In this document: positions 4,153 to 24,279 of the stretch, piece by piece
Layout: each line of letters starts with the position of its first letter
Numbering within the stretch: position 1 is the first letter of the stretch
DNA from: Armatimonadota bacterium
GTDB lineage: Bacteria > Armatimonadota > UBA5829
DNA length: 48,975 nucleotides
NCBI GenBank assembly: GCA_012522575.1
Contig: JAAYKE010000139.1
Coordinates: 1-48,975, forward strand
Reading direction: 5' to 3'
The notes under the pieces: model-generated
Seen by the model: the letters and a program-made list of their open reading frames with translations, nothing else
The model's database searches: none
Told to the model about the DNA's origin: nothing
Translations under genes and position numbers: made by a program

Positions 4153-4169
4153 GCAAGTGATCGGACGGG

Positions 4170-4198: not shown

Positions 4199-4232
4199 GA
4201 CACGACTTTTCACCAGGCGGTCTGTAAACACC

Positions 4233-5000
4233 ATGGACTTAAAGCTGCTAAGGCAACTGCTGGAAGATATCAAAACCGGCGAGATCGCCGTCGATGATGC
4301 GATGCGCCGGCTGCGTTCGCTGCCATACGAAGATATAGGTTTTGCCAAGCTGGATAATCACCGCAGGCTGCGCAATGGCGTGGCGGAGGTGGTTTTTTGT
4401 CAGGGCAAAACTACCTCGCAGATTATTGAAATCCTGCAACGACTTTCCGCGCAAAACTCCTGCGTGCTCGCTACGCGGTGCGATAAAGAAGTCTACGAGT
4501 CGGTTAAATCGCACATTCCGGACTCCACTTTCTATGAAGCGGCCAGAATTATCGTGACAGGCTCCCCTGAACGCAGTGAGCCTGAGCTTGCCTCCGACAA
4601 AAAATATGTGATGACACTCTGCGGCGGCACGGCCGATATTCCCATAGCCGAGGAGGCCGCGGTGACTGCGACCGCGCTTGGGAGTCGGGTTGAGCGGGCG
4701 TATGATGTGGGAGTCGCGGGTCTGCACAGGCTGCTGGATCAGAAGGATAGAATCCTTGGCGCAAACGTGCTGATTGTGTTGGCCGGCATGGAGGGCGCGC
4801 TGGCCAGCGTGGTCGGCGGACTGGTTGACAGGCCGGTTATTGCGGTTCCGACGAGCGTTGGTTATGGCGCGAGCTTCGGAGGATTGGCGGCCCTGCTGGC
4901 GATGCTGAACTCGTGTGCGGCCGGAGTCAGCGTGGTCAACATAGATAATGGATTCGGCGCAGGATACCTGGCGCACATGATCAATGACCCGCAAAATTGA
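4233..5000 (+). CDS. larB: LarB, nicotinate adenine dinucleotide carboxylase/hydrolase
   Basis: LarB carboxylates nicotinic acid adenine dinucleotide and cleaves it to pyridinium-3,5-biscarboxylic acid mononucleotide, the first step of nickel-pincer cofactor synthesis. The 255-residue protein has the PurE-like C-terminal half typical of the family: GGTADIPIAEEA at about residue 130, AGMEGALASVVGGL, PTSVGYGASFGG, and a closing NIDNGFGAG. The N-terminal helical part is also usual for LarB. The ATG at 4233 is preceded by a weak, distant AGGCGG, so translation may depend on larE or on the hairpins upstream. It lies 80 bp after larE and 28 bp before larC. No lactate racemase larA is present in the window. 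Confidence 0.93.
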   Translation: MDLKLLRQLLEDIKTGEIAVDDAMRRLRSLPYEDIGFAKLDNHRRLRNGVAEVVFCQGKTTSQIIEILQRLSAQNSCVLATRCDKEVYESVKSHIPDSTFYEAARIIVTGSPERSEPELASDKKYVMTLCGGTADIPIAEEAAVTATALGSRVERAYDVGVAGLHRLLDQKDRILGANVLIVLAGMEGALASVVGGLVDRPVIAVPTSVGYGASFGGLAALLAMLNSCAAGVSVVNIDNGFGAGYLAHMINDPQN

Positions 5001-5028
5001 ATAAGAAGCGCAAAGAGGAGCGGACGTG

Positions 5029-6246
5029 ATGAGAATTGCCTATTTTGACTGTTTTGCAGGAATCAGCGGTGATATGACCCTCGGGGCTTTGGTCGATGCG
5101 GGAGCTGACTTCGAAGCTCTGAAATCTGAGCTTGCAAAGTTGCACATCCACGATTTCGAGCTTAGCAGCGAAAGGGTTATGAAGCGGGGAATCGCTGCCT
5201 GTGATGTTATGGTTCACACCCATCACCATCATCACCACGACGAAGGTCATCACGGCCACTCACACGGCAGATCGTTTACCGATATCAAACATATTATCTC
5301 CGAGAGCAAGCTGTCCGATCGGGTGAAACGAGACTCGATTGCTATATTCGCTACCCTTGGCGAGGCCGAGGCCAAAATCCACGGCTCCACTATTGACAGC
5401 ATTCATTTTCATGAAGTGGGAGCGGTGGACGCGATAGTCGATATAGTCGGAGCGTGCATCTGCCTGGAGCTTCTTGGAATAGAGAAGTTATACTGCAGCC
5501 CTGTTCCCACATTTACCGGCATGGTGGAGATCGCTCATGGCAGGTTCCCTCTTCCTGCGCCGGCCACAATGGAGATTCTCACATCCAAAGGCGCGCCCTG
5601 GCGTGAACTCGGCATAGAAGGAGAGATCGTCACCCCCACCGGAGCAGCGATTGTGGCGACGCTGGCGGAGGGCTTCGGCTCGATGCCTGCTATGAACATA
5701 CAATCCACAAGCTATGGCGCAGGCAAGCAGGACTTTGGGATTCCCAATGTGTTGCGCGTGGTCGTCGGGGAAACCGAGGCTGCTGCGGATGGTGAATCTG
5801 AAGCGGTCGATGTCGTCGTGATTGAGACTAATATAGACGACCTCAGCCCGCAGATATACGAAGTCGTAACGGATAAGTTGTTCGATGCCGGCGCGCTCGA
5901 TGTCTATATGACTCCCATTGTTATGAAGAAAAGCCGCCCGGCAACTCTGCTTTCGGTGATATGCGAGCCGAGGTTGATCGACGCCCTCAGCCGGATCATT
6001 TTTGAGGAGACAACCTCCATTGGATTGCGCATAGACGAGCGCAAGAGGATCTGTCTGCAAAGAGAAATTAGGAAGGTGCAAACGGAATATGGGACGATAC
6101 GAATGAAGGTTGCGAGCCGGGATGGAAAAACTCTGAACGTGCAGCCGGAGTTTGAGGATTGCAGGTCTGCCGCAACAAAACTCGGCATGCCCGTCAAACG
6201 AATCAGGGACGCAGCGATTGTGGCGTTTTACGAAAAGGGTGACTGA
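5029..6246 (+). CDS. larC: LarC, nickel insertase for the pincer cofactor
   Basis: LarC is the CTP-dependent cyclometallase that inserts nickel into the pincer nucleotide. The N-terminal DCFAGISGDMTLGAL motif is characteristic. A histidine-rich loop (about residues 63-79, HTHHHHHHDEGHHGHSHG) is the expected nickel store or delivery site. Here one uninterrupted frame of 405 residues encodes both halves. In L. plantarum the two halves are joined by programmed frameshifting. A GTG at 5026 directly precedes the ATG at 5029; the ATG has the better spacing (8 nt) from GAGGAG. It ends 24 bp before the next gene, which may share the transcript. Confidence 0.95.
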   Translation: MRIAYFDCFAGISGDMTLGALVDAGADFEALKSELAKLHIHDFELSSERVMKRGIAACDVMVHTHHHHHHDEGHHGHSHGRSFTDIKHIISESKLSDRVKRDSIAIFATLGEAEAKIHGSTIDSIHFHEVGAVDAIVDIVGACICLELLGIEKLYCSPVPTFTGMVEIAHGRFPLPAPATMEILTSKGAPWRELGIEGEIVTPTGAAIVATLAEGFGSMPAMNIQSTSYGAGKQDFGIPNVLRVVVGETEAAADGESEAVDVVVIETNIDDLSPQIYEVVTDKLFDAGALDVYMTPIVMKKSRPATLLSVICEPRLIDALSRIIFEETTSIGLRIDERKRICLQREIRKVQTEYGTIRMKVASRDGKTLNVQPEFEDCRSAATKLGMPVKRIRDAAIVAFYEKGD

Positions 6247-6270: not shown

Positions 6271-9189
6271 ATGCTGAAGAGGTTATCATTGCTTGTGGTC
6301 TGTGCGTTTGCAGTGACTGCTATTACCGTAGTAGTGGAGGGTAATCCTGTGATTAAGAAAGCTGTAACCACGCCGTCGGGATCGGAGAAAGCCGGGCAGC
6401 GGCCGTATGAGATGGTTGGGCGCGAGGATGTTCGCGCTCCGCTTGTGGATTTTCAGGATATAAGCGGCTGGACCGTCGAGTGCTATAACGACGCGGATGC
6501 CGAGTTCGCCCTGAGTCGCGAGCAGAAGATGTGGGGGGAGTTCACGGGGAAGGTCACATACACGGGCAAGTCCGACAACGGAACTGTAATACTCCGCGCG
6601 CCGAAGCCGATCCCCGTAGAATCGTTCAACTGCATCAATATGTGGCTGAACGGCAACGTTTGGGAGTGGGCTCCTGAGCCGGGTTCGCCGTTTTTGACGG
6701 TCTCGGTTATATTGGTCGACTCGGATGGCAACGAAGAAGCCGTCGCACATAATAAAGTGCGATGGAAGGAATGGTGGCTGACCCACGCCAAGTTTCCAAA
6801 GCCATTGAAGGGAAAGAAGGTCAGCGCGATCAAGTTCGAGGGCATAAATAATCCGGAGGCGCGGTCGATTTATCTCGGCGGGCTGTATTGTTATACCGAA
6901 GAACTCAAAGAGTTGGTATTTGAGCCGCGACCCGCCAGAAACCTCACTTTGCTGCCGGGTCAGAGCCAGGGATTGAACGGAACCGGCCCCGGCAAGCTGC
7001 CATTCCCAACCAGAGAGCATACGATTCTGCCCTCTCTTTATGCTGAAGACTACAAATCTACTCTGAAACAGACCGCTGCCGAATCCTTTGAATTCGTATA
7101 TAAGGACAGCGACACGGAGATCAAATATGTCTATGATCCCGCGACGGGCAAACTTGGCGAAATAGTGGCTTGGGTAGATGGGAAGCGTTTTTGCAGGCCG
7201 ATGAGCGCAGGCGGGATAGAAATTGACGGCGAGGTGGCCTCAGGAAAGCTCGTTGGAGCCGAAGTAGATGGCAATGAACTGCGCGTCACATTCGACCTCG
7301 AAAAGAATAAGCGCCCTGTTAGAGTTGAATATATTATGAGGCTGTGGCAGAAGTCGCTGGTGATAGACTTCATCTGCCGTGGAGGTCGAGCGACAGGGCT
7401 GGCGTTAGGCGGCATTGACGGCGTTGCCAACCCGCGCATATTCCCGATTCCCTACCTCAGCTTCCACTGGCAGCAAAGACCAAGGTTTTTGTGTGCCGGC
7501 GACGCGGATAACCCGATATTCCAGACGGTGTGGGTGGACTGGTATCGATCCAACGCATCGGAGATGTATACAGAACAGTGGGTTGCGGAGGATTCCGCCA
7601 AGATCAACGGTGGAGTGCGATATAAGCCCAAAACCGATGGAAGAAGAAACGATCTCTATGAGCGCGTCTTTTTGACCATCTCCCCAATATATGAGGAGAC
7701 GCTGCCTACCATAGCTAACCCACCCAGCCCGCACGGTAAGATCGCCGGTGAAAGGCTGTGGCAGGAGAGTTGGGGGCCGGCGGAATATGCAAAAGAGATG
7801 GAGCGCGGTCGAAAGCTGCGATCCTACGGCATCGAGAAGCTGACCCAGTGTAACCACGAAATAACCTGGCGCGACGGCGGGGAGAGCTTCACTATGCGCT
7901 CAAAGGCGGCTCCGAGCAGAGGCGGCGATGAAGCGCTTATGAAATATGTCGCCCACCAGAAGTCTCTGGGATGGCTGTCCGGGTTATATACAAACTACTG
8001 CGATATGGCTCCGGTCAACGAGAACTGGAATGAGGATATGCCGCAGTTTACGCCGGAAGGGGACTGGCGACCGGCCTGGCCTCGCAATTATGCGCTGAAA
8101 CCCTCGCGAGCGGTGGAAATGGACGCGAAATACGCCAAACTCATCAAGCAGAAATACGGCTCTAACGCTGCCTATACGGACGTCCACACCGCTGTGCCGC
8201 CGTGGAACTACTGCGACTACGATGCGCGAGTGCCGGGCGCAGGGACCTTCGCGGCGACGTTTTATGCTTATGGAGAACTGCTGCTTAACGATCAGAAGGT
8301 ATATGGGCCGATCTGGTCGGAAGGGGCGTATCAGTGCTTCTACGCGGGGCTGGCGTCGGGTAACTATGGCCTGATGTATGATGACTCCAACCTTTCCAAA
8401 GAGCCGCTGAATGTGGCGTTTGATTTGCTGAAGATTCATCCGCTGGAGTGTGACATCGGAGTGCCGTGGAAGGGACAGTTCTTCAGGGAGCCTGGATGGG
8501 AGAAGCCGGAGGTTATCGAGGCCAGCGTCGATCATTTTATCGCGGCTACAATCGCCTACGGCCACATCGGCTATCTGGTCGAGGAGACGCACGGCATCGA
8601 GAAAGCGTGCAGATCATATTATATGCTCCAGCAGCTTCAGAAGAGATATTCGATGCAACCGGTGAGCAAAATCGAATATGCCGATGAGAATGGGACGATG
8701 GTATCGGTGTCGCACGCCATTTCGAAGGATATAATCAATCTCTCCCGTCTGCATGTATCGTATCAAAGCGGGCTGGAGATATTTGTCAATGGCTCGGACA
8801 GAGTGTGGACAGTCGAGGGCAGGCAGCTTCCGAAGTGGGGCTGGTATGCACGGGACAAAAAAGGCGACTTCATCGAGTTCTCGGCGTTGGTCAACGGCCA
8901 CCGGGTGGATTATGTGACATCACCTGACTATGAATATCTCGATGCCCGAGGAAAAGTGACCAGCCTGGGAGGAATCATTGCCAGCGGAGCCGTGGCCGTG
9001 CTGAGAAACAGCGATAAGACTGAGGTCATCGATATCCTAGGCAACGACGAGATCACTCTCAAATTAGACGCAGATAAATGCATCGCATACGACGGAGACG
9101 GCAAGAGCCTGGGATCCGCCAAGATCAAAAAAGCCGGCCCGCTGGTGACGATTACTACGCTAAAAGACGCTCGGAAATACGTGCTGTAG
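6271..9189 (+). CDS. Large secreted protein, putative TIM-barrel glycosidase-type enzyme, family not recognised
   Basis: 972 residues with a hydrophobic N-terminal signal (LLVVCAFAVTAITVVV), so probably exported. Residues about 40-210 look like a beta-sandwich carbohydrate-binding region. The centre is rich in aromatic and acidic residues (for example ITWRDGGESF, WSEGAYQCFYAG, GLMYDDSN), as in TIM-barrel glycoside hydrolases. A beta-rich tail follows. I cannot assign a CAZy family or name catalytic residues. The ATG follows a CGAGGG at suitable spacing. It lies 24 bp after larC and may be read through from the lar promoter, although its function seems unrelated. A hairpin follows at 9229-9261. 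Confidence 0.75.
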   Translation: MLKRLSLLVVCAFAVTAITVVVEGNPVIKKAVTTPSGSEKAGQRPYEMVGREDVRAPLVDFQDISGWTVECYNDADAEFALSREQKMWGEFTGKVTYTGKSDNGTVILRAPKPIPVESFNCINMWLNGNVWEWAPEPGSPFLTVSVILVDSDGNEEAVAHNKVRWKEWWLTHAKFPKPLKGKKVSAIKFEGINNPEARSIYLGGLYCYTEELKELVFEPRPARNLTLLPGQSQGLNGTGPGKLPFPTREHTILPSLYAEDYKSTLKQTAAESFEFVYKDSDTEIKYVYDPATGKLGEIVAWVDGKRFCRPMSAGGIEIDGEVASGKLVGAEVDGNELRVTFDLEKNKRPVRVEYIMRLWQKSLVIDFICRGGRATGLALGGIDGVANPRIFPIPYLSFHWQQRPRFLCAGDADNPIFQTVWVDWYRSNASEMYTEQWVAEDSAKINGGVRYKPKTDGRRNDLYERVFLTISPIYEETLPTIANPPSPHGKIAGERLWQESWGPAEYAKEMERGRKLRSYGIEKLTQCNHEITWRDGGESFTMRSKAAPSRGGDEALMKYVAHQKSLGWLSGLYTNYCDMAPVNENWNEDMPQFTPEGDWRPAWPRNYALKPSRAVEMDAKYAKLIKQKYGSNAAYTDVHTAVPPWNYCDYDARVPGAGTFAATFYAYGELLLNDQKVYGPIWSEGAYQCFYAGLASGNYGLMYDDSNLSKEPLNVAFDLLKIHPLECDIGVPWKGQFFREPGWEKPEVIEASVDHFIAATIAYGHIGYLVEETHGIEKACRSYYMLQQLQKRYSMQPVSKIEYADENGTMVSVSHAISKDIINLSRLHVSYQSGLEIFVNGSDRVWTVEGRQLPKWGWYARDKKGDFIEFSALVNGHRVDYVTSPDYEYLDARGKVTSLGGIIASGAVAVLRNSDKTEVIDILGNDEITLKLDADKCIAYDGDGKSLGSAKIKKAGPLVTITTLKDARKYVL

Positions 9190-9593: not shown

Positions 9594-12500
9594 TTATGGA
9601 TGCAGTAGCCCTAACACGTTCTGTATCCAGGTCACGTCTGCAAGAATCTTGCAACAGGCAGGATTCTCACAAGTATTGGCTATGCCCGTCCCCTCGCCGC
9701 CTATCAGCGGTTTGGTCGGAGCGAAGAACTCTATGCAATGATTCTCCACGAGCAACTGGAAGTCAAGCAGTTTTTCGCTTGCCATCGCGGTGTTGTTCTG
9801 TGCGATGAGATCAATAACCTCGTCGATATCCGCCAGCAGCCTCACATACAGAGCCTCATCGGAGATGAGAGGAACCTGGTTGCTGCCAAGCGGCAGTTGA
9901 TGGTATAGAGCCAGCAGCTTCTTAAGATCAGGAAGGCTGGTATCGACTTTAAACGAGAATGCCTCGACGTGCGACATAGTAGCCGGCTTAGGGCCATCCT
10001 CATCCGGATCCCACGGCTGATCCGTATCATAATATACAGTCAGCGTGAATGTGGTTCCGGGCAGCTCATACATCAGCGGCCACCAAAGCTGAATTTTTGG
10101 CAGCGACTGAATAATGTCCACTCCGGGATACTCATACGGGCAATCCGGTGACAGATCCTGATGCTTTCTGAGGACCACGTTTTTCAACGTATACGGAACG
10201 TTGTCACCTGCAGCAGCAACCCAGTTGCTCCACTGGCTGTCGCCAGGATCAATGGCGAAGACTCCAGGGACTGCGGTTATATTGTCTCCAATGATACCGC
10301 CGAATCCGGTCTGGACGCCATTGAGAGGATCGCAGGAGAGTCCGCAGAATACCTGCTTGAGCGTCGGCGGACATACCACCACCAGCGCATCGCATACTCC
10401 GGTATTAATGTTCTTCTCGCCGCATACTCCGTCCTGGCTGGCTATTCCGCAAGCCGAGAACTCATTGAGCCACGTATCGACTCCAGCCGGGCAAAGCACA
10501 GCCTGGTCGAACAGCAACGGCCCAAACACATGACAAACCCGCTGACCCGGCTTCAATACCGTGCTGCCATTAAGGGACTGCAGCTCGGCCAGCATCGCCT
10601 GGTTGACATCCTCCCCTGTCCCCGGAACCAAAGCATCGAAGTTCGATATCTTCGGATCCAGGAAGTTCGGACAAGCAGATGTGCCGGCATTCGCAAAGTC
10701 CACATCCACCTCGCCCGTGTTTATCACACAAGTCTGGAAGTATGCATACTTCTGCGGATGCATCGGGTCTGCCGCATCCAATACCTGGGATGAATTCGTC
10801 ATATCCCAATTGTCAGCGACCGATTTTTCGCAGTCTATTTTCGCAACCAATAGATCTACGGTTGCAGTCACAGGTCCCACAGTCACTTCGGCCCCGGTGG
10901 CGCACATTCCGGCAGCGGATGCCGAGTTGACGATATCATCGGTCAAGCCGATTGCTGAGAAGCCAGGGTTGGTTTTTACCTTGCAGACCAGGCACTTCTC
11001 TTCGCCCGCCTCCAGGGTTCCAACGTTCCACTGGCCGTCGTTGATAATGCAATTGGCAATGGCAACGCCATCGACCTTGCATTCCACGCAGCCGCTGTAT
11101 GCCTCGTTGGGCAATACGATGGCGTCTGTAACGACGACATCATTAATAGTTATCGAACCAAGGTTCTTGACACAGACCTTGAAGTAGACATCACTGCCTG
11201 CAATCGCCTGCACGCTGTCGGTAAACGGCCCTTCCTCAGAGCAGGAAGCCTGCTTTGTGATGTGCAGCCGACACGGGCAACATATCTCGACTATCGCAGA
11301 ACAGCCCTCAGTGGAGATAACTTCACCGCCACTTGGAGGCAGGCATACTTCAGGATCGGTCGCAAGTCCGCAGGCGGTAAATGTGTTCGCCCACTCTGAC
11401 TTGGTCAAGCAAAGCGTTTCCTCGTCGAAAGTGACAGCAACCTCAATGCAAACCGATTGGCCTGCCGGCAGTATGCCGTCGGTCAGTTTGGCAAGGAACG
11501 TTTTGGCTACGCTAAACGGATCCACCGCCTGTGTCGCCATTCCGCCCGGCAGACTTGCTGAGATACCCATAGGCGGGTTATCCAGAAGAGAATCGGCAAA
11601 GTGCGCATCGCAATCGCCTTTGGTGAAGTCGATCGCAATGTCACCTGTGTTGTTGACGCACAACTGGTAGTAGAGCGTTTTTACTCCAGCATCACATTCC
11701 GGGCCGCCCAGATCGAAGAAGTTTGTTGCATTGGTAAAGTCAAGGGTATCGTTTACCAGCTTCGTGCATTCGATCTTGGGGACGAGCACGTTGACTGTTG
11801 CGCTGGAAGGTCCGGCGTTGGCAGTCAGACCGGATGTCACCCCTACCCCACTGGCGTTTGCAGTGTTGGTAGCGTCGACATCAGTGCCCATCGGCTCGAA
11901 ATCAGGATTAGTCTGGAACTGGCAATAGTAGGTCTTGCTCTGACCAATAGCCAGGTTTCCTACGTTGATATCGCCCGGTATGGAATTGTCATCCGTGCAG
12001 CACGAGCCGCAAGGCAACAGGGCGGAATTGTCCATTTCCAGGGTGTCGGTGATGACCACATCCTTCAGGTCATCGCAGCCGGTGTTGGTTACGGTCAGCT
12101 TGAAGCAGACAAAACCTCCACGCAAGACATCCACCGACGACCCATAAATGCCGTCTGCGCAATCCTCGTCATAACAGGCTACTTCTTTGGTTATTGTAAG
12201 CGCCGGCTGGCAGCATACATTGACAGTAGTTGAGCAGGAATCTGTAGAAACCTGCATTGTTCCGCATATATCCTCGTCGCCGGCAGCGCCGGTAGCCGAG
12301 AAGTTGTTGGTGATTACGCGTGTGTCGTTTTTGCACAGCTCACACTTGTCGAAATCAAGCCCAACAACTATGCACACCGTATCACCGGAGGCAAGGATGC
12401 CATCAGCGAGTTCGGGCTGCGCCCTGAACAGAGCACAAACATCGGCGGGCAGTCCGGTTATGCCTGCAAATGAGCTTTCAAGCAGGGAACTGGAGATGCC

Positions 12501-14921
12501 GCACGACCCCGAAGCGCCGAAGTCAACCGGCGTCTCACCTGAGTTGGTGATGCACAGTTTGTAGTAGACCTGAGCCACGTTGTCGCCACTGCAGGGAAGA
12601 TCCAGAGCGTTGGTGGCTGCGTCAAAGTTATCCGAATCGCTGACCAGTGCGCTGCAGGTAATCGAAGGTATATCGACGTTTACAGATGCGATAGCCGGGC
12701 CATCGCTGACCTGCAGGCCGGATGTAACGCCCGTAGCCGACACGGATGCGACGTTGGTGGCATCGACAGTGGTGCCGGTTTTGGCATAAGCCGAGTCGAT
12801 CCGGAACTTGCAGTGGTAGGTATAGCTTGCGCCGATAGCCAGATTGGGGACATCAAACGTGCCGGGGATGGTCTTTCCGTCCGTGCAGCACGAGTCGCAG
12901 GCAATCAACGCATTGTCATCATTGGGCAGCAGATCATCAGTTATCGTGATACCCTGAAGATCGTCACAACCGGTGTTGGTGACCACTACCTTGAAGCAGA
13001 CATAATCGCCGGGCAGGGCGTTTACGGAGTCTCTGTAGTCTCCCTGCGCGCAGTCTCCATCTTCGGTGGTGCAGGCTACCTGCTTGGTAATCTCAATTGA
13101 CGGCTCGCAGCACACATTGACCGTAGTGGTGCAAGTGTCGGTGCTGACATTAGTGGAGCCGCAAAGTCCGAGATCGGCAAGTCCGGTTGCGTTGAAGTTG
13201 TTGGTTATGGTCCTGGTATCGTTCTTGCACAACGCGCATTTATCGAAACCAAGAGCTGGAAGCTCCACACATACCTGTGCTCCCGGAGCCAGAATGCCGT
13301 TTGTGAGTTGCGCTCTAAACGCAGCGCAAATATCGATCGGCAGCCCCGATATGCCTGCAAATGAGGAATCCAGCAGAGAATTTGTGATCCCGCAAGGACC
13401 GGAGGTGCCGAAACTGATCGGAACCTGCCCGTCGTTGGTGATGCACAGCTTAAAGTAGACATCCGCCACGTCATTGCCACAAGGCAGATCAAGCGTGTCG
13501 CTGGCATTGGTAAAGTCATTGCTGTCGCTTACGAGCGTAGAGCAACGGATCGATGGCTTAAGCACGCTTACCGATGCAAAATCAACGTCTGTTACGACTG
13601 TTTCCGAAAACTCTCCCTTTCCGGTTACAGTCGCCGTGTTTATGCAATCCGCCGCCACCGTGCTAAAGCTGCAGGTATGGATGAATTCGGCGCCGGAAGC
13701 CAGGTCTCCAACGGCTATGGTATCGCAGTTCGTAGTGCCACCGCTGCAGCCTACATCGGTGATTGTGACGTCGGTGAGGTTCTCATTGCCACAGTTGATC
13801 ACTGTAAGCCTGAAGTAGATCGGGTTGCCGGCAAGAATATCCACGTGGGATATCTTGTGGTATACGCCCGATCCGTCATTGATCAGATCGATGCCCGCGC
13901 CGCCTTTTGTCGTCGAAACCTTAAACGAGTTGGCAGTTGAACCTACTACGTAGTAAGGCGTCGTCGTATTTATGCCGGTGGTGGTCTCGATAGTATCAAA
14001 TCTGATATGGTCTCCATCGACCAACCCATGCGCAGGCGCATTTATCGTATCAGGCGCTTCAGCGAAGGTGCACGGCATTTCCGTGACAGGCACGAAAGGC
14101 CCCTCTTCGGAACAAGCGACCTCTTTGGTGATGCTAATACACGAATTACAGGACAGTTCTATGAGCTGTTCTGTCGTATCTTCATCGCACAGGTCGCCAG
14201 GGCCACCGCTCCTTGTTTTGAGCAGAACCGGCATATCGGCTCCGGCACCAGGGAATGCAGCACGAATGCCGCATATCTTTACCTCGATATCCTTCTCAGT
14301 GCCCGGATAGTCCGGAGCAACCCTTGGGCCTTTGAACCAGGTCGCTTCAACCAGGTCAAACGTCGAACCATTATTCCTGACCGTAATGTCAGGGTTGGCG
14401 CCACCGCTAAAGTCAGAGATAATGACCTTGAAGTTTTCGGTGAAATTGTCGAAATTAGTCTGGCCGACTCCGAACATAAAGACATATTCTTCATAGTCTT
14501 CATCTGAGAACTGAGACTTCAGAGTAGCCGGCAATGCTTGTTCTTTTTTGGTTATATGACCGTCGTCATTCATATCCCAGGCTATTGCGTCATCGTGAAG
14601 CTTCAGGCCGATATACAGGCAGTCAGTCGCGCAGTCATAGACCCAATAGACTTTCTCCACATTAAAACCCGACGGTGAAAATGTGCTGGGTTCAATATTA
14701 AAGCAGGCCTTCCCCATTGGCTCGTCCCGACAGCCAGGCGGGTTGCTTGCAAACTGCGATTCAAGCTGCTGATCTGTAGTGTCCACTTGTGAGAACACAC
14801 CTGGACCGACAAAATCGGCGGCCACGTTCCCTGTGAACGTAATCAAGTCCGCTGAGGCGGGCATTGCTAATGTCGCAAGCAATAGCGCCGCGACAATTAC
14901 AATGCAACTTTTACTATTCAT
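9594..14921 (-). CDS. Giant secreted cysteine-rich protein with four DUF11-like tandem units
   Basis: 1775 residues. A clear signal peptide ends at about MPASA (residue 24). An N-terminal domain of about 230 residues contains a calcium-type DMNDDGHITKKE loop. Four tandem units follow. Each unit has a DUF11-like half opening with ITKxVAC and containing VTNTGCDDL, and a second half with CITNxG, SLLxSSFAGIxGLP and FDKCxLCKNDTR. The last 256 residues form a domain shared with the neighbouring gene at 15423-17801. The first unit carries an insert resembling beta domains of phage tail proteins. I chose the ATG at 14921 because GAGGAG precedes it and it begins the signal peptide; the frame is open further upstream. 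Probably a surface adhesin or sheath-like protein stabilised by disulfides; exact function unknown. Confidence 0.85.
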   Translation of the reverse strand: MNSKSCIVIVAALLLATLAMPASADLITFTGNVAADFVGPGVFSQVDTTDQQLESQFASNPPGCRDEPMGKACFNIEPSTFSPSGFNVEKVYWVYDCATDCLYIGLKLHDDAIAWDMNDDGHITKKEQALPATLKSQFSDEDYEEYVFMFGVGQTNFDNFTENFKVIISDFSGGANPDITVRNNGSTFDLVEATWFKGPRVAPDYPGTEKDIEVKICGIRAAFPGAGADMPVLLKTRSGGPGDLCDEDTTEQLIELSCNSCISITKEVACSEEGPFVPVTEMPCTFAEAPDTINAPAHGLVDGDHIRFDTIETTTGINTTTPYYVVGSTANSFKVSTTKGGAGIDLINDGSGVYHKISHVDILAGNPIYFRLTVINCGNENLTDVTITDVGCSGGTTNCDTIAVGDLASGAEFIHTCSFSTVAADCINTATVTGKGEFSETVVTDVDFASVSVLKPSIRCSTLVSDSNDFTNASDTLDLPCGNDVADVYFKLCITNDGQVPISFGTSGPCGITNSLLDSSFAGISGLPIDICAAFRAQLTNGILAPGAQVCVELPALGFDKCALCKNDTRTITNNFNATGLADLGLCGSTNVSTDTCTTTVNVCCEPSIEITKQVACTTEDGDCAQGDYRDSVNALPGDYVCFKVVVTNTGCDDLQGITITDDLLPNDDNALIACDSCCTDGKTIPGTFDVPNLAIGASYTYHCKFRIDSAYAKTGTTVDATNVASVSATGVTSGLQVSDGPAIASVNVDIPSITCSALVSDSDNFDAATNALDLPCSGDNVAQVYYKLCITNSGETPVDFGASGSCGISSSLLESSFAGITGLPADVCALFRAQPELADGILASGDTVCIVVGLDFDKCELCKNDTRVITNNFSATGAAGDEDICGTMQVSTDSCSTTVNVCCQPALTITKEVACYDEDCADGIYGSSVDVLRGGFVCFKLTVTNTGCDDLKDVVITDTLEMDNSALLPCGSCCTDDNSIPGDINVGNLAIGQSKTYYCQFQTNPDFEPMGTDVDATNTANASGVGVTSGLTANAGPSSATVNVLVPKIECTKLVNDTLDFTNATNFFDLGGPECDAGVKTLYYQLCVNNTGDIAIDFTKGDCDAHFADSLLDNPPMGISASLPGGMATQAVDPFSVAKTFLAKLTDGILPAGQSVCIEVAVTFDEETLCLTKSEWANTFTACGLATDPEVCLPPSGGEVISTEGCSAIVEICCPCRLHITKQASCSEEGPFTDSVQAIAGSDVYFKVCVKNLGSITINDVVVTDAIVLPNEAYSGCVECKVDGVAIANCIINDGQWNVGTLEAGEEKCLVCKVKTNPGFSAIGLTDDIVNSASAAGMCATGAEVTVGPVTATVDLLVAKIDCEKSVADNWDMTNSSQVLDAADPMHPQKYAYFQTCVINTGEVDVDFANAGTSACPNFLDPKISNFDALVPGTGEDVNQAMLAELQSLNGSTVLKPGQRVCHVFGPLLFDQAVLCPAGVDTWLNEFSACGIASQDGVCGEKNINTGVCDALVVVCPPTLKQVFCGLSCDPLNGVQTGFGGIIGDNITAVPGVFAIDPGDSQWSNWVAAAGDNVPYTLKNVVLRKHQDLSPDCPYEYPGVDIIQSLPKIQLWWPLMYELPGTTFTLTVYYDTDQPWDPDEDGPKPATMSHVEAFSFKVDTSLPDLKKLLALYHQLPLGSNQVPLISDEALYVRLLADIDEVIDLIAQNNTAMASEKLLDFQLLVENHCIEFFAPTKPLIGGEGTGIANTCENPACCKILADVTWIQNVLGLLHP
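10365..14138 (-). repeat. Four tandem protein-coding repeat units inside the giant secreted protein
   Basis: The units begin at ISITKEVAC, IEITKQVAC, LTITKEVAC and LHITKQASC. Each has a second half starting with a C..LV.D-type motif (for example RCSTLVSDS, TCSALVSDS, ECTKLVNDT, DCEKSVADN). The middle two units are the most alike; the fourth is the most diverged. The first is longest because of the insert at 13851-14063. Confidence 0.8.
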
Positions 14922-14967
14922 GTCCTCATTTCTCCTCTCTTTCACACTTATTCGTGGAATGACTATA

Positions 14968-15051
14968 CTGGATGCACCCAAAATCGGTGCACTGGAATAC
15001 GCTGACCTCTCGCTGTGCGTCTGCATGCTTGACAGAGCAGCAGGCATCCAG
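14968..15051 (-). promoter_or_regulatory. Candidate structured 5' UTR element of the giant secreted protein gene
   Basis: On the minus strand CTGGATGC (15044-15051) pairs over 8 bp with GCATCCAG (14968-14975) and closes an 84-nt region. Inside are GCACC/GGTGC and ACGC/GCGT pairings. It ends about 46 nt before the start codon. It matches no RNA family I recognise. Confidence 0.35.
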
Positions 15052-15177
15052 CATCATACCGGAGGCTGCGGGAGATGGGCGATTCCATTTTCTTCCCAGA
15101 ACGGGACCGTGAGGAGAAATTCAATTTAGCGCGGCTTCGGTAACCTCTCTCTAGTGGAAACCATTCTGCGCTATCGT

Positions 15178-15203
15178 GGCGGGGAGGCTGCAACCTCCCC
15201 GCC
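15178..15203 (-). terminator. GC-rich hairpin between the two giant secreted protein genes
   Basis: GGCGGGGAGG pairs perfectly with CCTCCCCGCC around a 6-nt loop. It lies downstream of the gene ending at 15423 and of the structured RNA at 15241-15346. No U-run follows on either strand, so it may block or pause transcription rather than terminate it fully. Confidence 0.5.
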
Positions 15204-15240
15204 CGTCTCACAAACGAACCCGTGTGATCTATATTCTATT

Positions 15241-15346
15241 GTCTCAACAAACGGGTTTTCACCCTTAGCGTTTTGCTGTCTATGCGCAATCGACCATTTT
15301 CCTGCGAAACTTCCACCAGTTTTCGCTACGGTCGCCTGGCTGAGAC
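15241..15346 (-). ncRNA. Candidate structured RNA (leader or small RNA), about 106 nt
   Basis: The outer helix GTCTCA/TGAGAC (15341-15346 with 15241-15246) closes the element. Inside, CGACC/GGTCG (15291-15295 with 15330-15334) encloses GCGAAA/TTTCGC (15304-15309 with 15321-15326). A further hairpin reads GGGT-GAAA-ACCC on the minus strand (15253-15264), a GNRA tetraloop that favours this strand. A good promoter at 15356-15384 would start transcription about three bases before the outer helix. It contains no obvious gene and matches no family I know. It may be the 5' leader of the gene starting at 14921, or a free small RNA ended by the hairpin at 15178-15203. Confidence 0.45.
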
Positions 15347-15355
15347 TTCAAAGGG

Positions 15356-15384
15356 ATTATGATAGCATTCTGCGACTACGTCAA
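15356..15384 (-). promoter_or_regulatory. Sigma-70-type promoter ahead of the structured RNA and giant protein gene
   Basis: On the minus strand TTGACG (15379-15384), a 17-bp spacer, then CATAAT (15356-15361): five of six consensus bases in each box. The start at about 15349 leaves a 5' UTR of some 430 nt before 14921. Confidence 0.6.
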
Positions 15385-15422
15385 TACCAGTTTTTCACCG
15401 GTAGCGACGCAGCGGCTTCCCG

Positions 15423-17801
15423 CTACCACTTAAACACCCCTAAAGCATCAGCGATATAGTCAGCGTCCGCAAGGATTTTGCAGCACGCCGGATTCTCCAG
15501 CGTATTGCGTATTCCCAACTCGGCCACGCATTCTCCGCAGCCGACAGTAACACAGTTGTTTTCAACGAGCAAAATAAATTCGTTGAACAACTCCGCCATC
15601 GCAGGATCGGATGGATCCATTGATCGCAGCCTGTCAATGTCGTCGAGCAAGCGATTATACAGCGTTTCGCTGGAGATCAGCGGAACCTGACAGCTTCCGG
15701 CGGGCAGTTGGTGGAAAAGCCTTATAATGCCCTCCAGACTGTCGAGAGTCGCGTCGACCTCCCATGTCCATATATCTTGCTCAGTAGTATACGGCGCATC
15801 ATCAAGCTTGTAGCTTATGGTAAGCGTCCAGTTGGTTCCCGGAAGCTCGTACATAAGCGGCCACCAGGTGCGTATGCCTCTGTAACCTTGCTGCAGCACC
15901 GATTTACCCCCGATGGGAGTGGTGCAAACATACTCCGGCACTACCTTACGCAAACTGGTATTTGTTACAGTATACGGCTTGTTTTGTTGCGCGGCGGTCA
16001 CAAAGTTCGACCAATTCGACCCACCAGGGTCGAATGACAACACTCCCGGCACCGCGGTAATAACATCCGGCCCCGTAAAGCCATTTACTCCGGCGAATTT
16101 ACGGATCGGCTCACAAGCGCCGCCGGGATAAGCCTGCAGCAGCTTGAACTTTTTGACCTGCGGTTCGGATATTGGGGTAATCGTAAGGTCATAGAGCACA
16201 GGTGATGGCGCACCGGGGGTCCTCTCGAAGTTCACTGTCACTTTGAGATAGCGTCCCATCGGAGTCGCCGCCAGCGGCGCGCCATTGACAGCAATTTCGA
16301 CATCAGAGAACGAAACAAGGTCCGAAGAACTTTGCACGCTCACGGCAAGGGTAGCGCCTTCATATTCGCCGCTATCCGGATTACCAGGCTGATCGTTCCA
16401 GGAGACCTTATCCCAGATCGTGTCGTTTTCCTTGCCGTCATAGACAACCGTCCAGACGCCTTCGTTGTTGGCGACACACCCGTGAATTGACCCATTCATA
16501 TCGCTGTAGGCGTAGTGGCCAACAGATAGAAGCAGTTTTTTGTTTATATCAAAGGCATTGGTTTCGGGATTGATGCGGATAACGTGTTCATCCATTCGGT
16601 TGCAAACCCAAACGTTGCCGTCAACGTCCACGGAAACCCCGGAAGGCTCCGCGCCCGTCTCATCAATCGTTGCTTTCAGAACGCCGCTGTTGTCATAGCG
16701 TGTAATGTTGTCGATGCCCGAATTGGCCACCCACACATCATTATCATCCGTACACGCCACGCCCCGGCTTCCAACCAGCCCCGGCAGACTTTTGCTCCAG
16801 TCAACAGTCTTATTTACTATGTCAATGCGACTCATCATGCTGGTTGTGTAACCCGTGACAAACAGATGATCGAGTTTGTCGAGCGCCAACCCGTAAGCCA
16901 TGTGCGGCAGGGGAGGGAGCCGGTCGATAGTGGCCGGATCGGTGGTAGGATCAATCCGCACCACGTCGCCCTCATCCCTGCCCACCGACCATATCGCGCC
17001 AAACCTGTCTATTGCGGCCCCAAATGGCCTGTGCGGCGCAACGTTAACCTGCTGATCTATAGTAACCATTGAAGGCAGAGCCGGCGGTTGTGCGCCGGTA
17101 ATATGGAAGAACCTGTTTCGCCCCTTGCTGCCAACCCATATATCGTCATTTTCATCTTTGGCTAACGCACACGGAGATGTGCCTCTGCCGTCGTCCGGAT
17201 CATACGGTCCGGCATAGGTCCCCGGATAATACACCCCTTCGTTTCTGGCGACAAGCACGACCTCGTAGAGCACGCACTCGTCCTCACCCCAGGGCAGTAT
17301 CTCATCATCGCTTATATCGCCATCGCCGTTGATATCGGTCGATGTCTGCACGATTCCATCGTTGTTTCGGTCTATCCACTGACCAGCCTCGACCAGGCCA
17401 ATCTTAACCACTGTTCCCGCAGTTCTGTTTGCAACCCAGCAACTGCCGTCACTGCACACGGTGGTACGGGATGGCCATCCGAAGTTTTGTTCTCCTGAAT
17501 AGGGAAGCTCCGGCAACTCAGGGGGCACTACTCTGTAGCGTCCGAGTTCTTTGCCGGTGGTGGCACAGACTTTGGATATGGTGCCATTTTCGTTGGGCGC
17601 CCACAAAAAGGACTGGGTCCTGCAGTCATCAGGCACGAGTTGAAGCTGATCGGGTATGGAGGCACACTCCACTCCCTGCAGGGTCCCAGTCAAAAAATCA
17701 GCGCTTGTAGTATAGGTACGTTGTGCAATGCTGCTTCCGGAGACAGCCATTGCCAGCAAGAGCGCGAGGCCCAGGCTTATATAATTAGCCTTAAATGTCA
17801 T
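15423..17801 (-). CDS. Secreted beta-propeller (NHL/Vgb-like) protein with the shared C-terminal domain
   Basis: 792 residues from the chosen start. A signal peptide (LGLALLLAMAVSGSSIAQ) leads into a series of about 45-residue repeats with motifs such as GIDNITRYDNSG, DDNDVWVANSG, VDVDGNVWVCNR and DENDDIWVGSKG. These indicate an NHL or virginiamycin-lyase-like beta-propeller. A calcium-binding-type stretch DINGDGDISDDE lies within it. A short beta-sandwich region follows, then a C-terminal domain of 239 residues shared with the gene at 9594-14921. Starts at 17801, 17807 and 17828 are all possible. GAGGAG lies 9 nt from the ATG at 17801 but only 3 nt from the one at 17807, so I prefer 17801. 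Extracellular; role unknown, possibly surface attachment. Confidence 0.82.
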   Translation of the reverse strand: MTFKANYISLGLALLLAMAVSGSSIAQRTYTTSADFLTGTLQGVECASIPDQLQLVPDDCRTQSFLWAPNENGTISKVCATTGKELGRYRVVPPELPELPYSGEQNFGWPSRTTVCSDGSCWVANRTAGTVVKIGLVEAGQWIDRNNDGIVQTSTDINGDGDISDDEILPWGEDECVLYEVVLVARNEGVYYPGTYAGPYDPDDGRGTSPCALAKDENDDIWVGSKGRNRFFHITGAQPPALPSMVTIDQQVNVAPHRPFGAAIDRFGAIWSVGRDEGDVVRIDPTTDPATIDRLPPLPHMAYGLALDKLDHLFVTGYTTSMMSRIDIVNKTVDWSKSLPGLVGSRGVACTDDNDVWVANSGIDNITRYDNSGVLKATIDETGAEPSGVSVDVDGNVWVCNRMDEHVIRINPETNAFDINKKLLLSVGHYAYSDMNGSIHGCVANNEGVWTVVYDGKENDTIWDKVSWNDQPGNPDSGEYEGATLAVSVQSSSDLVSFSDVEIAVNGAPLAATPMGRYLKVTVNFERTPGAPSPVLYDLTITPISEPQVKKFKLLQAYPGGACEPIRKFAGVNGFTGPDVITAVPGVLSFDPGGSNWSNFVTAAQQNKPYTVTNTSLRKVVPEYVCTTPIGGKSVLQQGYRGIRTWWPLMYELPGTNWTLTISYKLDDAPYTTEQDIWTWEVDATLDSLEGIIRLFHQLPAGSCQVPLISSETLYNRLLDDIDRLRSMDPSDPAMAELFNEFILLVENNCVTVGCGECVAELGIRNTLENPACCKILADADYIADALGVFKW

Positions 17802-18003
17802 TGCCATACTCTCCTCTTGACGAGCCAATCCTACTAGCCCATGGCTCGCGGCTGCTTTGATCCATCCTGGAGAGTCGGCCCCGCACTCGTGAGCACGCTA
17901 TGCAGCCTTAATCATGGCTGCGTAGGCCGACACAAGCGCCAGCGCCGTGGAGACTTGGGAAGAAGAGGTACGGCATTGCGCATCCGTATTTAAATCTGAA
18001 TGC

Positions 18004-18083: not shown

Positions 18084-18974
18084 TCAGGGGGCGATCTGAA
18101 GCGCGTTCATAAGCTTGATCATAGCCGGCGCCAGCAGCACCACAAACATCGAGGGCAATATGCACACAACCATCGGGAAAATCATCTTTAACGGGAGGGT
18201 GGCCGCCTCCTCGCGCGCGCGCAGATTTCGCTGGACTCGCATACTATCCGATTGTTCTCTGAGAACATCGACGATACTGACACCCAGTTGCTCGGCCTGA
18301 TAAAGGGCGGCGACGAATATGCTGAGCTGTTGCAGACCGACGCGCTGGGAGGTGTTTCTGAGAGCATCCATTCGACCGGTTCCGATGGCAATATCATCAA
18401 GGGTTCTTTTGAACTCCGCAGCCACCGGCCCGGACATTCTCTGCACCACCTGATCCATTGCGCCATCCAGCCCCAGCCCCGCCTCCACGCAGACCACCAG
18501 CAGATCAATGGCATCCGGCAGCACTCGGAATATCTGCCTTTGCCGCTCGGCTATTTTTCTGGAAACTACAGCTTTGGGCAGCAAAATACCGGCGATAAAT
18601 GCCATCGCCACTATCAACTGGAACTGCGGAGTCTGTATACTCAAGCTGCGACAGGCAAAAAATGCCAATGCCGGCAGGACGACAAAGCTCACTATGCGAC
18701 AGACCACAAAGGCCGCGGAGCTAATGCTCATACCGGCCCTTTCCAGTTCCGCCGCCGTCGCCTTCATAGCCGTGCTTGGGATAAAACGAGCGACAAAATC
18801 GCTCAATTTATTCCACAACGGAATAACCAGCCGCTGCCACAGCGAGGTTTCCATATCCACGGCCATTGGAATGCCGAGTCTCTCGCTTCGAATTGCGCTT
18901 TCACCGGCGCGGGTCAGTCCCAGAATAAATAAAAAGACCGTCGCCGCGCATAATATACTAATAAGAACCGGCAA
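18084..18974 (-). CDS. tadC: TadC, inner-membrane platform protein of the Tad pilus
   Basis: TadC partners TadB to form the inner-membrane platform (type II secretion F-like domain) that assembles the Flp pilus. The 296-residue protein has an N-terminal membrane segment, a pair of central hydrophobic segments and a C-terminal one. A GspF-like cytoplasmic stretch lies between them (RQRQIFRVLPDAIDLLVVCV, VEAGLGLDGAMDQV). The region RVQRNLRAREEAATLPLKM near the end is typical. It starts 17 bp after tadB and is the last gene of the operon. Confidence 0.9.
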   Translation of the reverse strand: MPVLISILCAATVFLFILGLTRAGESAIRSERLGIPMAVDMETSLWQRLVIPLWNKLSDFVARFIPSTAMKATAAELERAGMSISSAAFVVCRIVSFVVLPALAFFACRSLSIQTPQFQLIVAMAFIAGILLPKAVVSRKIAERQRQIFRVLPDAIDLLVVCVEAGLGLDGAMDQVVQRMSGPVAAEFKRTLDDIAIGTGRMDALRNTSQRVGLQQLSIFVAALYQAEQLGVSIVDVLREQSDSMRVQRNLRAREEAATLPLKMIFPMVVCILPSMFVVLLAPAMIKLMNALQIAP

Positions 18975-18991
18975 TTTTGAACATGCCCTTT

Positions 18992-19962
18992 CTAGAAGTC
19001 AGTTTTCAGGATGCTGCGTATAATCAGGATGCCGACTATCTGAAGCGTGATCGCGCATCCGACAAGGATTTGCCCTACAGTATTAGTGAACAACACCGAT
19101 GCATAGTCCGGGGACATATAAAACAGCACCCCCGTTAACAAAAACGGCAACAGGGATAATATCACACCGGACATTCGCCCTTCGGCAGTAAGCGCGCTCA
19201 CTTCCCTTTCGAGACGCACCCTCTGTCTGATCATAGAGCTGATGTTGTCCAGAACCATAGACAGATTGCCGCCTACCTGCCTGTTTATAGTAACGGCCAC
19301 AGTCACCAACTCCAAATCGTAGCTGCACATCTTGTCAACCATTCTCTTCAGCGAGTCGTCCAGCGACAACCCAACCCGCATATCAGCCAACACTACTCTG
19401 AATTCATCGGATATCGGTTTGGGCATTTCATCTCGCACCATCGCAGCCGCCCTTTCGAACCCTGCGCCGCTCCTCATCGCCGATGCGATCAGTGAAAGCG
19501 CGTCCGGCAACTGATTATTGAATGCAACTACCCTTTTGGCGCACCTGTTTTCAAGATATGCCCAGGAGGCCAATATGCCTGCCAGCAGGCCGATAAACTG
19601 CATGCCCGGCAGTTTTTTCAACCAAAGCGCAAATATAACGGCCAGCAGTATGGAGACGGCGCTGCTTATTCCGACATATTCACTCGGCTTAAGCTCAAGG
19701 CCCGCTCTATCAAGCTTGACCATCAACCTGCGCGCCCATCCGTCGGCTATCGCACCTCGAGACAACTCTTCGTCGGCCTCGTCCTCGACCCGATCCGCAG
19801 CTTCGCCGGGTATCCCTGCTTTTACGGCCTGGTCTTTACTCCGACGCCTGTTGATGCGATCCCCAATCCACCAGATAGCATAACCCGCAAGCAGCCATCC
19901 CGCGATAATGGCCGCGATCAGTCCATAGCTCGATTTAGCTAAAGCAAGGGGCATAGTCATTA

Positions 19963-19966
<4 letters not shown>
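18992..19966 (-). CDS. tadB: TadB, inner-membrane platform protein of the Tad pilus
   Basis: About 324 residues. It has an N-terminal membrane segment, two hydrophobic segments in the middle, a cytoplasmic GspF-like domain (NNQLPDALSLIASAMRSGAG, RMVDKMCSYDLELVTVAVTI) and C-terminal membrane segments. It acts with TadC and the CpaF ATPase. Several starts are possible: GTG 19972, ATG 19966, ATG 19960 and ATG 19954. I chose 19966 because the ATG overlaps the cpaF stop codon in ATGA, the usual coupled arrangement, but 19960 has the better spacing from GGTGGA. Confidence 0.88.
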
Positions 19967-21300
<1,334 letters not shown>

Positions 21301-21323
21301 GCCAGTCTTTCAACCCCCTCAAT

Positions 21324-22460
21324 TTATTCCTGTCCCGAATCGGGCATCAGTTGCGATGGTTCCTCGGCCAGTATATTGGCAAGCTGATGCAGCGCATTTG
21401 CGAGCTTTGTATTGCCACGCATCGGATCCCCTGCCAGATTGCGCTGGTTTGGAAGCATGGCTTGTATTTTGACGCCAACCGCCTTCTCTATCTGATCTTG
21501 CGAAATTGAATCGTGCCTTGACACCCTGTTTACCACAAGTTTGACCTGCTCCAGGGGTATATATCTCGGCGCAACGGTGTCGAGCAGCCTTTTTGCGTCA
21601 GTTACCGTTTGCACTTCGAATCTATTTGTAACGATTATCAGCTCGTGGATCAGCGATATGACCCTCAGAACAGGCTCGTGCATAAGAGGTGGCAGGTCGA
21701 TCAGCACAAACCGGTAGCCCTTTTTCAATTCGTGGATTATGTTTTCCAGCAAATCTCCGCCGAGTGCGTCCAGAGGACTAATCACGATAGAGCCTATCAG
21801 CACTTTAAGCCCGCTCTGGTGATCGGACATATACGATTGCAGAAGCTCGAGGTCAATTTTTTCGGCCTGCAGCTCGACCAACGGCCTCGGATCCTCTATG
21901 CGCAGCATAGTTGAGATGTCGCCGAACTGAGTATACATATCCAGCAGGACAACCTGACCGGGGAATTTCTGATGCAGGCAAAGCGCCAGACCTGACGCAA
22001 CCGTGCTTTTCCCTATGCCCCCTCTGCCCCCTGTAACCGCGATTATATTGCAGGGCGGCGCGAGAGGAGGCATAGGAGGGTCGTATATGTCCTTGATAGT
22101 CGAAAGAAGCGCGGAATCAATCTCAGTCGACGACAGACACGCGGAAGCTCCGGCAAGCATCGCCTGCTTGGTCATATCCGGGCTGACATCCCCGTTGCCA
22201 ATCAGAATGCCCTTCACCGCAGGCACATATTGCCGAATCATCCTGGTCGTTTCCAGGCCATTATAAATCGGCAAATCCAGCATTACCACGGCCACGTCGT
22301 GTTTGCGCACACCCGCCGTGTGGACGGCTTCCTGCCCATCAACCGCTACGCCCGTGACGATGCAATCCTTTGTCGAGGTCAACACCCGACGCAGATGATC
22401 TCGAACAGCCCTGTCCCTGGCGGCCACCAAAACCCGTATGCTTTCGCTTCTTTCACTCAT
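21324..22460 (-). CDS. cpaE: CpaE/TadZ, receiver-ParA-like localisation ATPase of the Tad pilus
   Basis: 378 residues. The N-terminal 125 residues form a response-regulator-like domain that keeps an aspartate in VVMLDLP (Asp62), the usual phosphoacceptor position. TadZ homologues often lack it. A proline-rich linker leads to a MinD/ParA ATPase domain with the deviant Walker A TGGRGGIGKST (about 143-153). TadZ places the pilus machinery at the cell pole or other sites. The start at 22460 has a weak ribosome site. It lies 22 bp after cpaC. Confidence 0.92.
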   Translation of the reverse strand: MSERSESIRVLVAARDRAVRDHLRRVLTSTKDCIVTGVAVDGQEAVHTAGVRKHDVAVVMLDLPIYNGLETTRMIRQYVPAVKGILIGNGDVSPDMTKQAMLAGASACLSSTEIDSALLSTIKDIYDPPMPPLAPPCNIIAVTGGRGGIGKSTVASGLALCLHQKFPGQVVLLDMYTQFGDISTMLRIEDPRPLVELQAEKIDLELLQSYMSDHQSGLKVLIGSIVISPLDALGGDLLENIIHELKKGYRFVLIDLPPLMHEPVLRVISLIHELIIVTNRFEVQTVTDAKRLLDTVAPRYIPLEQVKLVVNRVSRHDSISQDQIEKAVGVKIQAMLPNQRNLAGDPMRGNTKLANALHQLANILAEEPSQLMPDSGQE

Positions 22461-22482
22461 AACTACATATCACCATCGCCTG

Positions 22483-24279
22483 TCAGTCGCCATCCTGCGG
22501 GACAGGTATCGGAGCATTTGCATCTTTTTCTATCAACTGCGGCGTAACCACAATAATAAGCTCGGTCTGCCTCTCTACGAAATTCTTGCTCTTAAACAGC
22601 TCTCCAATTACCGGTATTTTGCTCAACAGAGGAATCTGACTGACATATTTCGTGACGTCACTTGACAGCAGCCCGCCAATAGCAAGCGCCTGGCTGTTCT
22701 GAACGTGAACAGTCGTAGTCGCACGACGCACCGTCAGCGCGGGAACCGTAATCCCGCCCGTCCGGACACCATAATTGGGATCGTTGTTGATTCCGCTTAC
22801 CTCCGGGGTCACTGTCATTGAAATGCGATTATCATCGCCGATCTTCGGCCGCACAGTCAACTGGATCCCGAACGGCTTATATTGAACCGTAATCGACGAT
22901 ACGCCGATGCTGGAGTTTTGCGCTATCGGAACGGGCAACTCCCCGCCGACCAGAATGCTCGCCGAATGCCCGTCCGCTATCAACAGCTTAGGTTCGGACA
23001 GTATGCGAGCGTAGTTATTCGTGACGAGAGCGTTGATTTGTGCGGCAAACGGCAGTCTGCTGAACGAGTTAAGCCCGTCTTTGATAGGAATGCTGCCAAT
23101 GCCGGATGCCGTATCACCGGCATTTTCCAGGGCAAAAAACGGCTGAGCCTCAAACTTCCCGCTGATGGCAGATCCCCAATTGACTCCGAGGTCCTTGAGT
23201 TTGCTCTTATCTACCTCCAAAACCTGCGCGGTGACCAAAACCTGCTTGGCTGTGGCCAGATCGACATTGAGCACCGCCACGACTCGCGGCCCATTTGGCA
23301 CACGTCCCGAAAAAACGCTGCGAACGGCGGTCACTTCCTGTCCGACCACTACTCCGCCATCCTCGGTTGTATTGACCTCGGTTTTGGCCCGGTCTATTGC
23401 ATCAGGGACGGTCATTGACACAGCCCCCGAAAATCCCGTCTGCGCATCGCTTTTCGAGGCCGCTCCGCTGCCTGACGTCGTTTGGAGTTCGCCGACATAG
23501 GCTCCGATAATATCCCGAATCTTGAGCACTTCCGTCGTAGTCGGCACATCGCCGGTTATCAGCACGGTGTTATCCGGCAGTTCTTTGAAGGTGAGCGCCG
23601 GATTATCGAGAATCGCCTTCAACGACTCAACTACCGCCTTTGACTCGACAGTATCGCGCTTGACAAGGTTCAAAACCTTTAAGCCCGTGCCCTGCGCGAT
23701 ATATTCGGCTCTTTTAATCTGCTCCTCGCTTTTCGCCGTGCCGGACAGCATTATTCCGGTTTGGCTGGCTTGCACGCTAATGGTTGACACGCCGATCTGC
23801 GCGCAAATATCCGCTGCGACAGCCTCCGGTTCCGGTTTGGGCTTAATGACGGTTACATAATAGGTCACAGGCTTCCAGATGGCATCCCAGATGCGCACAA
23901 CGGCCTTGCCCTCCGCTTTGGCGTTTAGAATCACCTCGGTTTGCGAGACAACGACTAAATCTACTATATCCGGCAGGTTGACTGCTGCACGGGTGATCCC
24001 GCTGCCTGTCAGCAAAATCGACGCGCCAGGCTCAAGGTTTTTATGTGCGATTGCATGCGGAACCACCGGATCGTTCCTGTCCAGATCCGCATCTTCCGCC
24101 AAACCACGATTAACATCAGCCTTTGCAATGCCCTTGCCGTCCGGCCCGATCTCGGAAACGGTCGCCACAACGCCGGATTCCTGAGCATACGCAAACGCAT
24201 ACGGCGCCAGACTAATGATAACGGCAAAACACACTATTAAAACGCTTCGCATCCCTTTGCCGGCCATAATTGATCTCAT
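22483..24279 (-). CDS. cpaC: CpaC/RcpA, outer-membrane secretin of the Tad pilus
   Basis: 598 residues. A signal peptide (SVLIVCFAVIISLAPYAFAYA) is followed by a pilus-assembly N-terminal domain (about 55-150: GSGITRAAVNLPDIVDLVVV) and two BON/N1-like modules. The C-terminal secretin channel shows VLVTAQVLEVDKSKLKDLGV, LSEPKLLIADG and VPLLSKIPVIGELF-type motifs. The presence of a secretin implies an outer membrane. The start at 24279 follows GGGAGGT at 9 nt; ATGs at 24267 and 24252 are less well placed. Confidence 0.94.
   Translation of the reverse strand: MRSIMAGKGMRSVLIVCFAVIISLAPYAFAYAQESGVVATVSEIGPDGKGIAKADVNRGLAEDADLDRNDPVVPHAIAHKNLEPGASILLTGSGITRAAVNLPDIVDLVVVSQTEVILNAKAEGKAVVRIWDAIWKPVTYYVTVIKPKPEPEAVAADICAQIGVSTISVQASQTGIMLSGTAKSEEQIKRAEYIAQGTGLKVLNLVKRDTVESKAVVESLKAILDNPALTFKELPDNTVLITGDVPTTTEVLKIRDIIGAYVGELQTTSGSGAASKSDAQTGFSGAVSMTVPDAIDRAKTEVNTTEDGGVVVGQEVTAVRSVFSGRVPNGPRVVAVLNVDLATAKQVLVTAQVLEVDKSKLKDLGVNWGSAISGKFEAQPFFALENAGDTASGIGSIPIKDGLNSFSRLPFAAQINALVTNNYARILSEPKLLIADGHSASILVGGELPVPIAQNSSIGVSSITVQYKPFGIQLTVRPKIGDDNRISMTVTPEVSGINNDPNYGVRTGGITVPALTVRRATTTVHVQNSQALAIGGLLSSDVTKYVSQIPLLSKIPVIGELFKSKNFVERQTELIIVVTPQLIEKDANAPIPVPQDGD

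Follow-up and report, generated by a model that had tools for sequence, protein, structure and literature searches.

The C-termini of two neighbouring secreted proteins encoded by an Armatimonadota bacterium define a real, new and uncatalogued protein domain family. We propose, with moderate confidence, that this module is a portable, non-catalytic, two-lobed extracellular domain with a putative role in binding or tethering. The two proteins, A and B, lie on a contig of 48,975 nucleotides that was analysed over its full length (the window), where the relevant features are the following:

9594–15047, minus strand: protein A, a 1817-aa open reading frame (ORF calling, Pfam and a full-length homologue in genome G020)
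10917–13832, minus strand: DUF11/DUF7507 repeat span of protein A, residues about 406–1377 (Pfam)
9597–10364, minus strand: C-terminal module of A, 256 aa (BLASTP against B and family alignment)
9936–10364, minus strand: predicted Ig-like beta half of the module in A, with the WWPLMYE motif and a conserved Cys at 10140–10142 (AlphaFold and fold comparison)
9597–9935, minus strand: predicted helical half of the module in A (AlphaFold, fold comparison and hhalign)
9735–9737 and 9651–9653, minus strand: conserved cysteines C220 and C248 (the latter of ENPACC) of the module in A
15423–17828, minus strand: protein B, an 801-aa open reading frame with a Vgb/NHL-type beta-propeller and the C-terminal module (ORF calling and Pfam)
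16560–17051, minus strand: best propeller match in B, Vgb_lyase, residues 260–423 (Pfam E 6.5e-11, which falls below the curated cut-off)
15426–16142, minus strand: C-terminal module of B, 239 aa (BLASTP against A and family alignment)
18084–27743, minus strand: complete Tad pilus operon with prepilin peptidase, TadE, TadG, CpaB, secretin, CpaE, TadA, TadB and TadC (Pfam and synteny)

The likely start of protein A is an internal ATG at 14921, which opens the signal-peptide-like MNSKSCIVIVAALLLATLAMPASA, and that of protein B lies near 17807, again with a signal-peptide-like N-terminus. From N- to C-terminus, A consists of an N-terminal region, the DUF11/DUF7507 repeats and the module. Comparison of A with B by BLASTP gives a single significant alignment, which pairs residues 1563–1816 of A with 563–800 of B (44% identity and 58% positives over 262 columns, E 8e-49). 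The homology of the two C-termini that the original prediction had read from the sequence alone thus holds beyond chance, and its boundaries for both minus-strand segments (256 and 239 aa) and all of its landmark motifs are recovered in A and B. At the DNA level 47 bases align, at 81%, and almost nothing else; with so little DNA similarity, the relation must be an old one at the level of protein rather than the product of recent copying. The parts upstream of the module give no significant alignment by BLASTP and were correctly described as unrelated: Pfam identifies DUF11/DUF7507 repeats in A and a Vgb/NHL/SGL propeller in B, the SGL and NHL matches lying above their curated cut-offs. Both proteins had been called giant, which is apt for A but not for B, at 801 aa. 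Elsewhere in the window, positions 6271–9189 of the plus strand encode a secreted-looking protein of 972 aa with no Pfam matches at E 0.001, and three adjacent plus-strand genes (3118–6246) resemble larE, larB and larC by eye (nickel-pincer cofactor synthesis), with no obvious larA beside them.

The module has no meaningful match in Pfam (four copies tested) or NCBIfam even at E 10, and its profile finds nothing below E 1 among the sequences of solved structures. It also lacks a heme or metal motif. The possibility that the shared segment is a known catalytic domain, which had been named as grounds for rejecting the original idea, therefore finds no support: no known enzyme family is matched in Pfam, NCBIfam or PDB sequences. 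Within the window's class the module occurs in 12 of 28 genomes, with 27 copies in total and between one and six in each genome that has it. The window genome itself (G000; 3.06 Mb in 189 contigs) carries four, namely A, B and two free proteins, 291 and 296 aa long, in which a signal-peptide-like N-terminus is followed by nothing but the module. Among named genomes, a scan located 12 loci, ten of them in Armatimonadetes records (isolates such as UBA5829, AS10tlH2TH_387 and SJ273), one in a Coriobacteriia-labelled MAG and one in another bacterial record. On the Coriobacteriia-labelled contig, which is 6.2 kb long (L035), the module is preceded by an ice-binding-like domain and DUF7507 repeats; transfer, misbinning and a mislabelled MAG are candidate explanations for this copy. 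The viral collection contains no relatives of the module.

Among the 291 genomes searched in the rest of the phylum, relatives are found in one only, G241, which belongs to another Armatimonadota class. Six of its secreted proteins (L145–L150) end in a sister module, the others being 50–56% identical to the first, and one of the six is free-standing, so that the pattern of free and fused forms is the same as in the window family. Profile comparison relates the two families with a probability of 93% and E 3.8e-7, and the sister module likewise has no match in Pfam. Its strikingly conserved motifs are GPGSGLNTNF, GNRALLFSPP, EYFSTVAAG.TQKPKI and DSDEEPIGCLLIE; the second Cys of the EEP-CL motif is kept and an obvious partner Cys is absent.

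The cysteines of the window family are informative about the end of the module. In the copies read, the CC pair is separated from the stop by 16–23 residues (18 in both A and B), and the module end is therefore strict. The view that the module ends in Cys-Cys is accurate as to conserved cysteines, but 18 residues follow the pair in A and B and near-invariance is limited to the second Cys. That residue, C248, and C220 are retained throughout the class, the one exception being a degenerate internal copy that has lost both. From this joint conservation and joint loss we infer a disulfide between C220 and C248, which probably staples the module.

AlphaFold2, run on 15 module sequences, predicts beta strands in residues 39–151 and helices in residues 152–264 (pLDDT 78, pTM 0.76). 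Predicted alone, the beta half is Ig-like; its best Z of 5.9 is in the range of common topologies, and it shares a general topology with Ig-like and fibronectin III-like domains but no sequence relation that we could find. For the helical half, VIA-align ranks residues 1323–1411 of 7nsn_A first (Z 11.3 over 87 residues, rmsd 2.4), where the next row scores 7.6, yet the value is under the ~13 advised for helical bundles and could be reached by a common arrangement. The matched region is the FHB domain of the Neobacillus novalis GH92 mannosidase (NnGH92; PDB 7nsn, residues 1321–1411), which is also a C-terminal accessory four-helix bundle, although the identity is 18% and the FHB is preceded by a CBM32 rather than by the beta half seen in the module. 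The source treats this bundle as accessory and assigns it no function, but its removal lowers yeast cell wall binding by about half and the Tm from 60 to 53 (PMC10167667). Foldseek searches of the whole model against the PDB and of the beta half against a viral library returned no hits at E ≤ 0.001.

The sequence pattern of the module also suggests a likeness to FIMAH (PF22888). FIMAH and the helical half are both small helical bundles at the C-termini of large secreted proteins, FIMAH in those of soil bacteria and Armatimonadota, and they have a similar helix order, in which one helix and a short linker lead into two long helices and a last helix. Compared by hhalign with six proteins of the phylum that contain FIMAH, the module scores 28.5, above the ≤17.3 reached by 200 column shuffles. 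The differences are that (i) the AQSGK loop is absent from the module, which has a long Cys-flanked loop instead, (ii) the helical half of the module always follows the beta half and (iii) the Pfam FIMAH model matches none of the four module copies and nothing in the entire window genome. The hhalign probability varies with the set of members used (53% with this set, 33 and 4% with two others), and because the other sets are weaker we call the helical half FIMAH-like rather than FIMAH. When solved structures were searched with a FIMAH profile, 7nsn was not retrieved. Our literature search found no paper on the FIMAH domain, on Tad pili of Armatimonadota or on DUF11 in connection with Armatimonadetes.

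The module is C-terminal in 26 of the 27 class copies. The exception, a 469-aa protein of genome G021 (C41), continues for about 200 residues beyond the module and is the degenerate copy that lacks both C220 and C248. At this locus (L094, 8799–11050) two adjacent, overlapping genes carry divergent copies. In at least 11 of the 27 copies, from at least nine genomes, a signal peptide and the module make up the entire protein. The fused copies have partners of the kind seen with accessory modules: Pfam identifies stalks of DUF11/DUF7507, an NHL propeller, an ice-binding-like domain, and SdrD_B repeats together with either an M6 or an M4 peptidase. Signal peptides were judged by eye throughout, and on that reading the proteins with the module would be exported by the Sec route. 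A maximum-likelihood tree cannot be reconciled with fewer than four switches between the free and the fused state and rejects a single clade of fused copies (p 8.4e-5), which together indicate that the module has moved repeatedly onto unrelated proteins; the four copies from the window's genus cluster together with moderate support (91/63). The picture of a portable, uncatalogued and lineage-confined module on differing secreted proteins is upheld. The further claim that it always sits at the extreme end of such proteins is right for 26 of 27 copies, but overlooks the many copies that are the whole secreted protein.

The function first suggested for the module was that of a sorting, anchoring or export signal. 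Here it would resemble a type IX cargo domain in a lineage-specific export system, recognised by an outer-membrane transporter or transpeptidase that retains or attaches the protein. Such a signal would be expected to sit almost exclusively at the C-termini of unrelated Sec-exported proteins, as the module does on peptidases, adhesin-like proteins and other cargo, and as type IX C-terminal domains and PEP-CTERM do on diverse secreted proteins; the lack of a known family for the module and the position of A and B after a Tad operon also suit this reading. Type IX C-terminal domains are about 80 aa long and PEP-CTERM about 25 aa, whereas the module is about 250 aa, is free-standing in at least nine genomes and is present in only one to six copies per genome. 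Its proteins lack, at their extreme C-termini, the PEP motif, transmembrane segment and basic tail of PEP-CTERM. Free proteins of signal peptide plus module occur in most module-bearing genomes, and the helical half resembles an ordinary accessory bundle of secreted enzymes. We therefore regard a sorting signal as unlikely, and as less likely than a binding or tethering module; anchoring through binding still agrees with these data.

A processing or transport gene accompanying the module was also expected, and none tracks it. Exosortase is present in 24 of the 28 class genomes whether or not they bear the module, which occurs in 12 of these 24 and in none of the four genomes without exosortase, numbers that are too small and phylogenetically non-independent to mean much. 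SprA_N, of the type IX system, has matches in 0 of 28 class genomes, with a control that is likewise silent everywhere. No transport gene is common to all module loci, and the Tad genes adjoin the module in two lineages only.

In both the window genome and its sister species (G001), tadC is immediately followed, on the same strand, by B and A, and in G020, from another family of the class, a full-length A homologue (33% over about 1680 aa) comes after the Tad genes, whose other side is flanked by two more module proteins. These positions could mean that A and B are adhesins that belong to the Tad machinery, as its cargo or at its tip, and dock to it by means of the module, an explanation we find quite improbable. 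Adjacency is confined to these three genomes and does not extend to most module genomes: six other Tad loci of the class (G008, G011, G016, G017, G026 and G027) have no neighbouring module protein, the six copies of G021 and the two of G004 exist without CpaB, and the free copies are located away from Tad. A link to Tad exists in two lineages but is not a general one. A genome-level association was also considered and rejected as unconvincing, CpaB being present in 6 of 12 module-bearing class genomes and in 5 of the 16 others.

Free copies are found instead in a cluster that is conserved over several genera and contains, in order, a PQQ propeller with a PEP-CTERM signal, the module, a protein of ~225 aa and a tetraheme cytochrome (L081, 3504–9159; also L083, L086, L087, L089, L090, L099 and L113). 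The propeller is divergent, of PQQ_2 type, with its PEP-CTERM signal at the C-terminus, and occurs in nine genomes. The ~225-aa protein occurs in ten genomes, has marginal or no Pfam matches and looks LolA-like by eye. The cytochrome, of ~485 aa, combines a weak metallophosphoesterase match at its N-terminus with four CxxCH heme motifs. PQQ-type propeller genes also adjoin module copies at two further loci (G021 C33 and G020 C19), and with only six PQQ_2 proteins in the window genome this adjacency is not due to chance. The cluster possibly encodes an extracellular redox or sensing complex. The free form might then work with the propeller, the ~225-aa protein and the cytochrome, the fused forms being derived, and the retention of the ~225-aa and cytochrome genes even in G017, a member of another family, would accord with this. 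The second free copy of the window genome and most fused copies nevertheless have other neighbours, and heme or metal motifs are, as noted, absent from the module; we find this explanation very improbable.

The binding or tethering role that we infer best accommodates the free and fused forms, the low copy number and the accessory type of the helical bundle. In our model, proteins would be exported by the Sec route and the module would fold beyond the inner membrane, with an Ig-like beta-sandwich in front of a small FIMAH- or NnGH92-FHB-type helical bundle, stapled by the disulfide. Where it ends a DUF11 or SdrD-like stalk, a propeller or a peptidase, the module may hold its carrier to the surface, the matrix or a partner protein, and the free secreted form would be the same unit acting alone. 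The exosortase-type (PEP-CTERM) PQQ propeller encoded beside the free form is the first candidate partner. A plain binding domain would not call for so strict a C-terminal position, which is compatible with a sorting role as well. It is conceivable, though very improbable, that the module is the recognition domain of a so far undescribed Armatimonadota system for surface assembly. Free copies would then form or nucleate a layer on the outer surface and capture C-terminally tagged enzymes and stalks by module–module contact, and in some lineages Tad pili would take part.

An uncatalogued domain superfamily of at least 33 copies can now be annotated, and it connects hypothetical secreted proteins of a phylum that is hardly cultured. 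It also points to a testable, conserved cluster of propeller, module, ~225-aa protein and cytochrome, and to a Tad-linked giant protein. If the module does tag proteins for surface assembly, it would represent a new sorting route.
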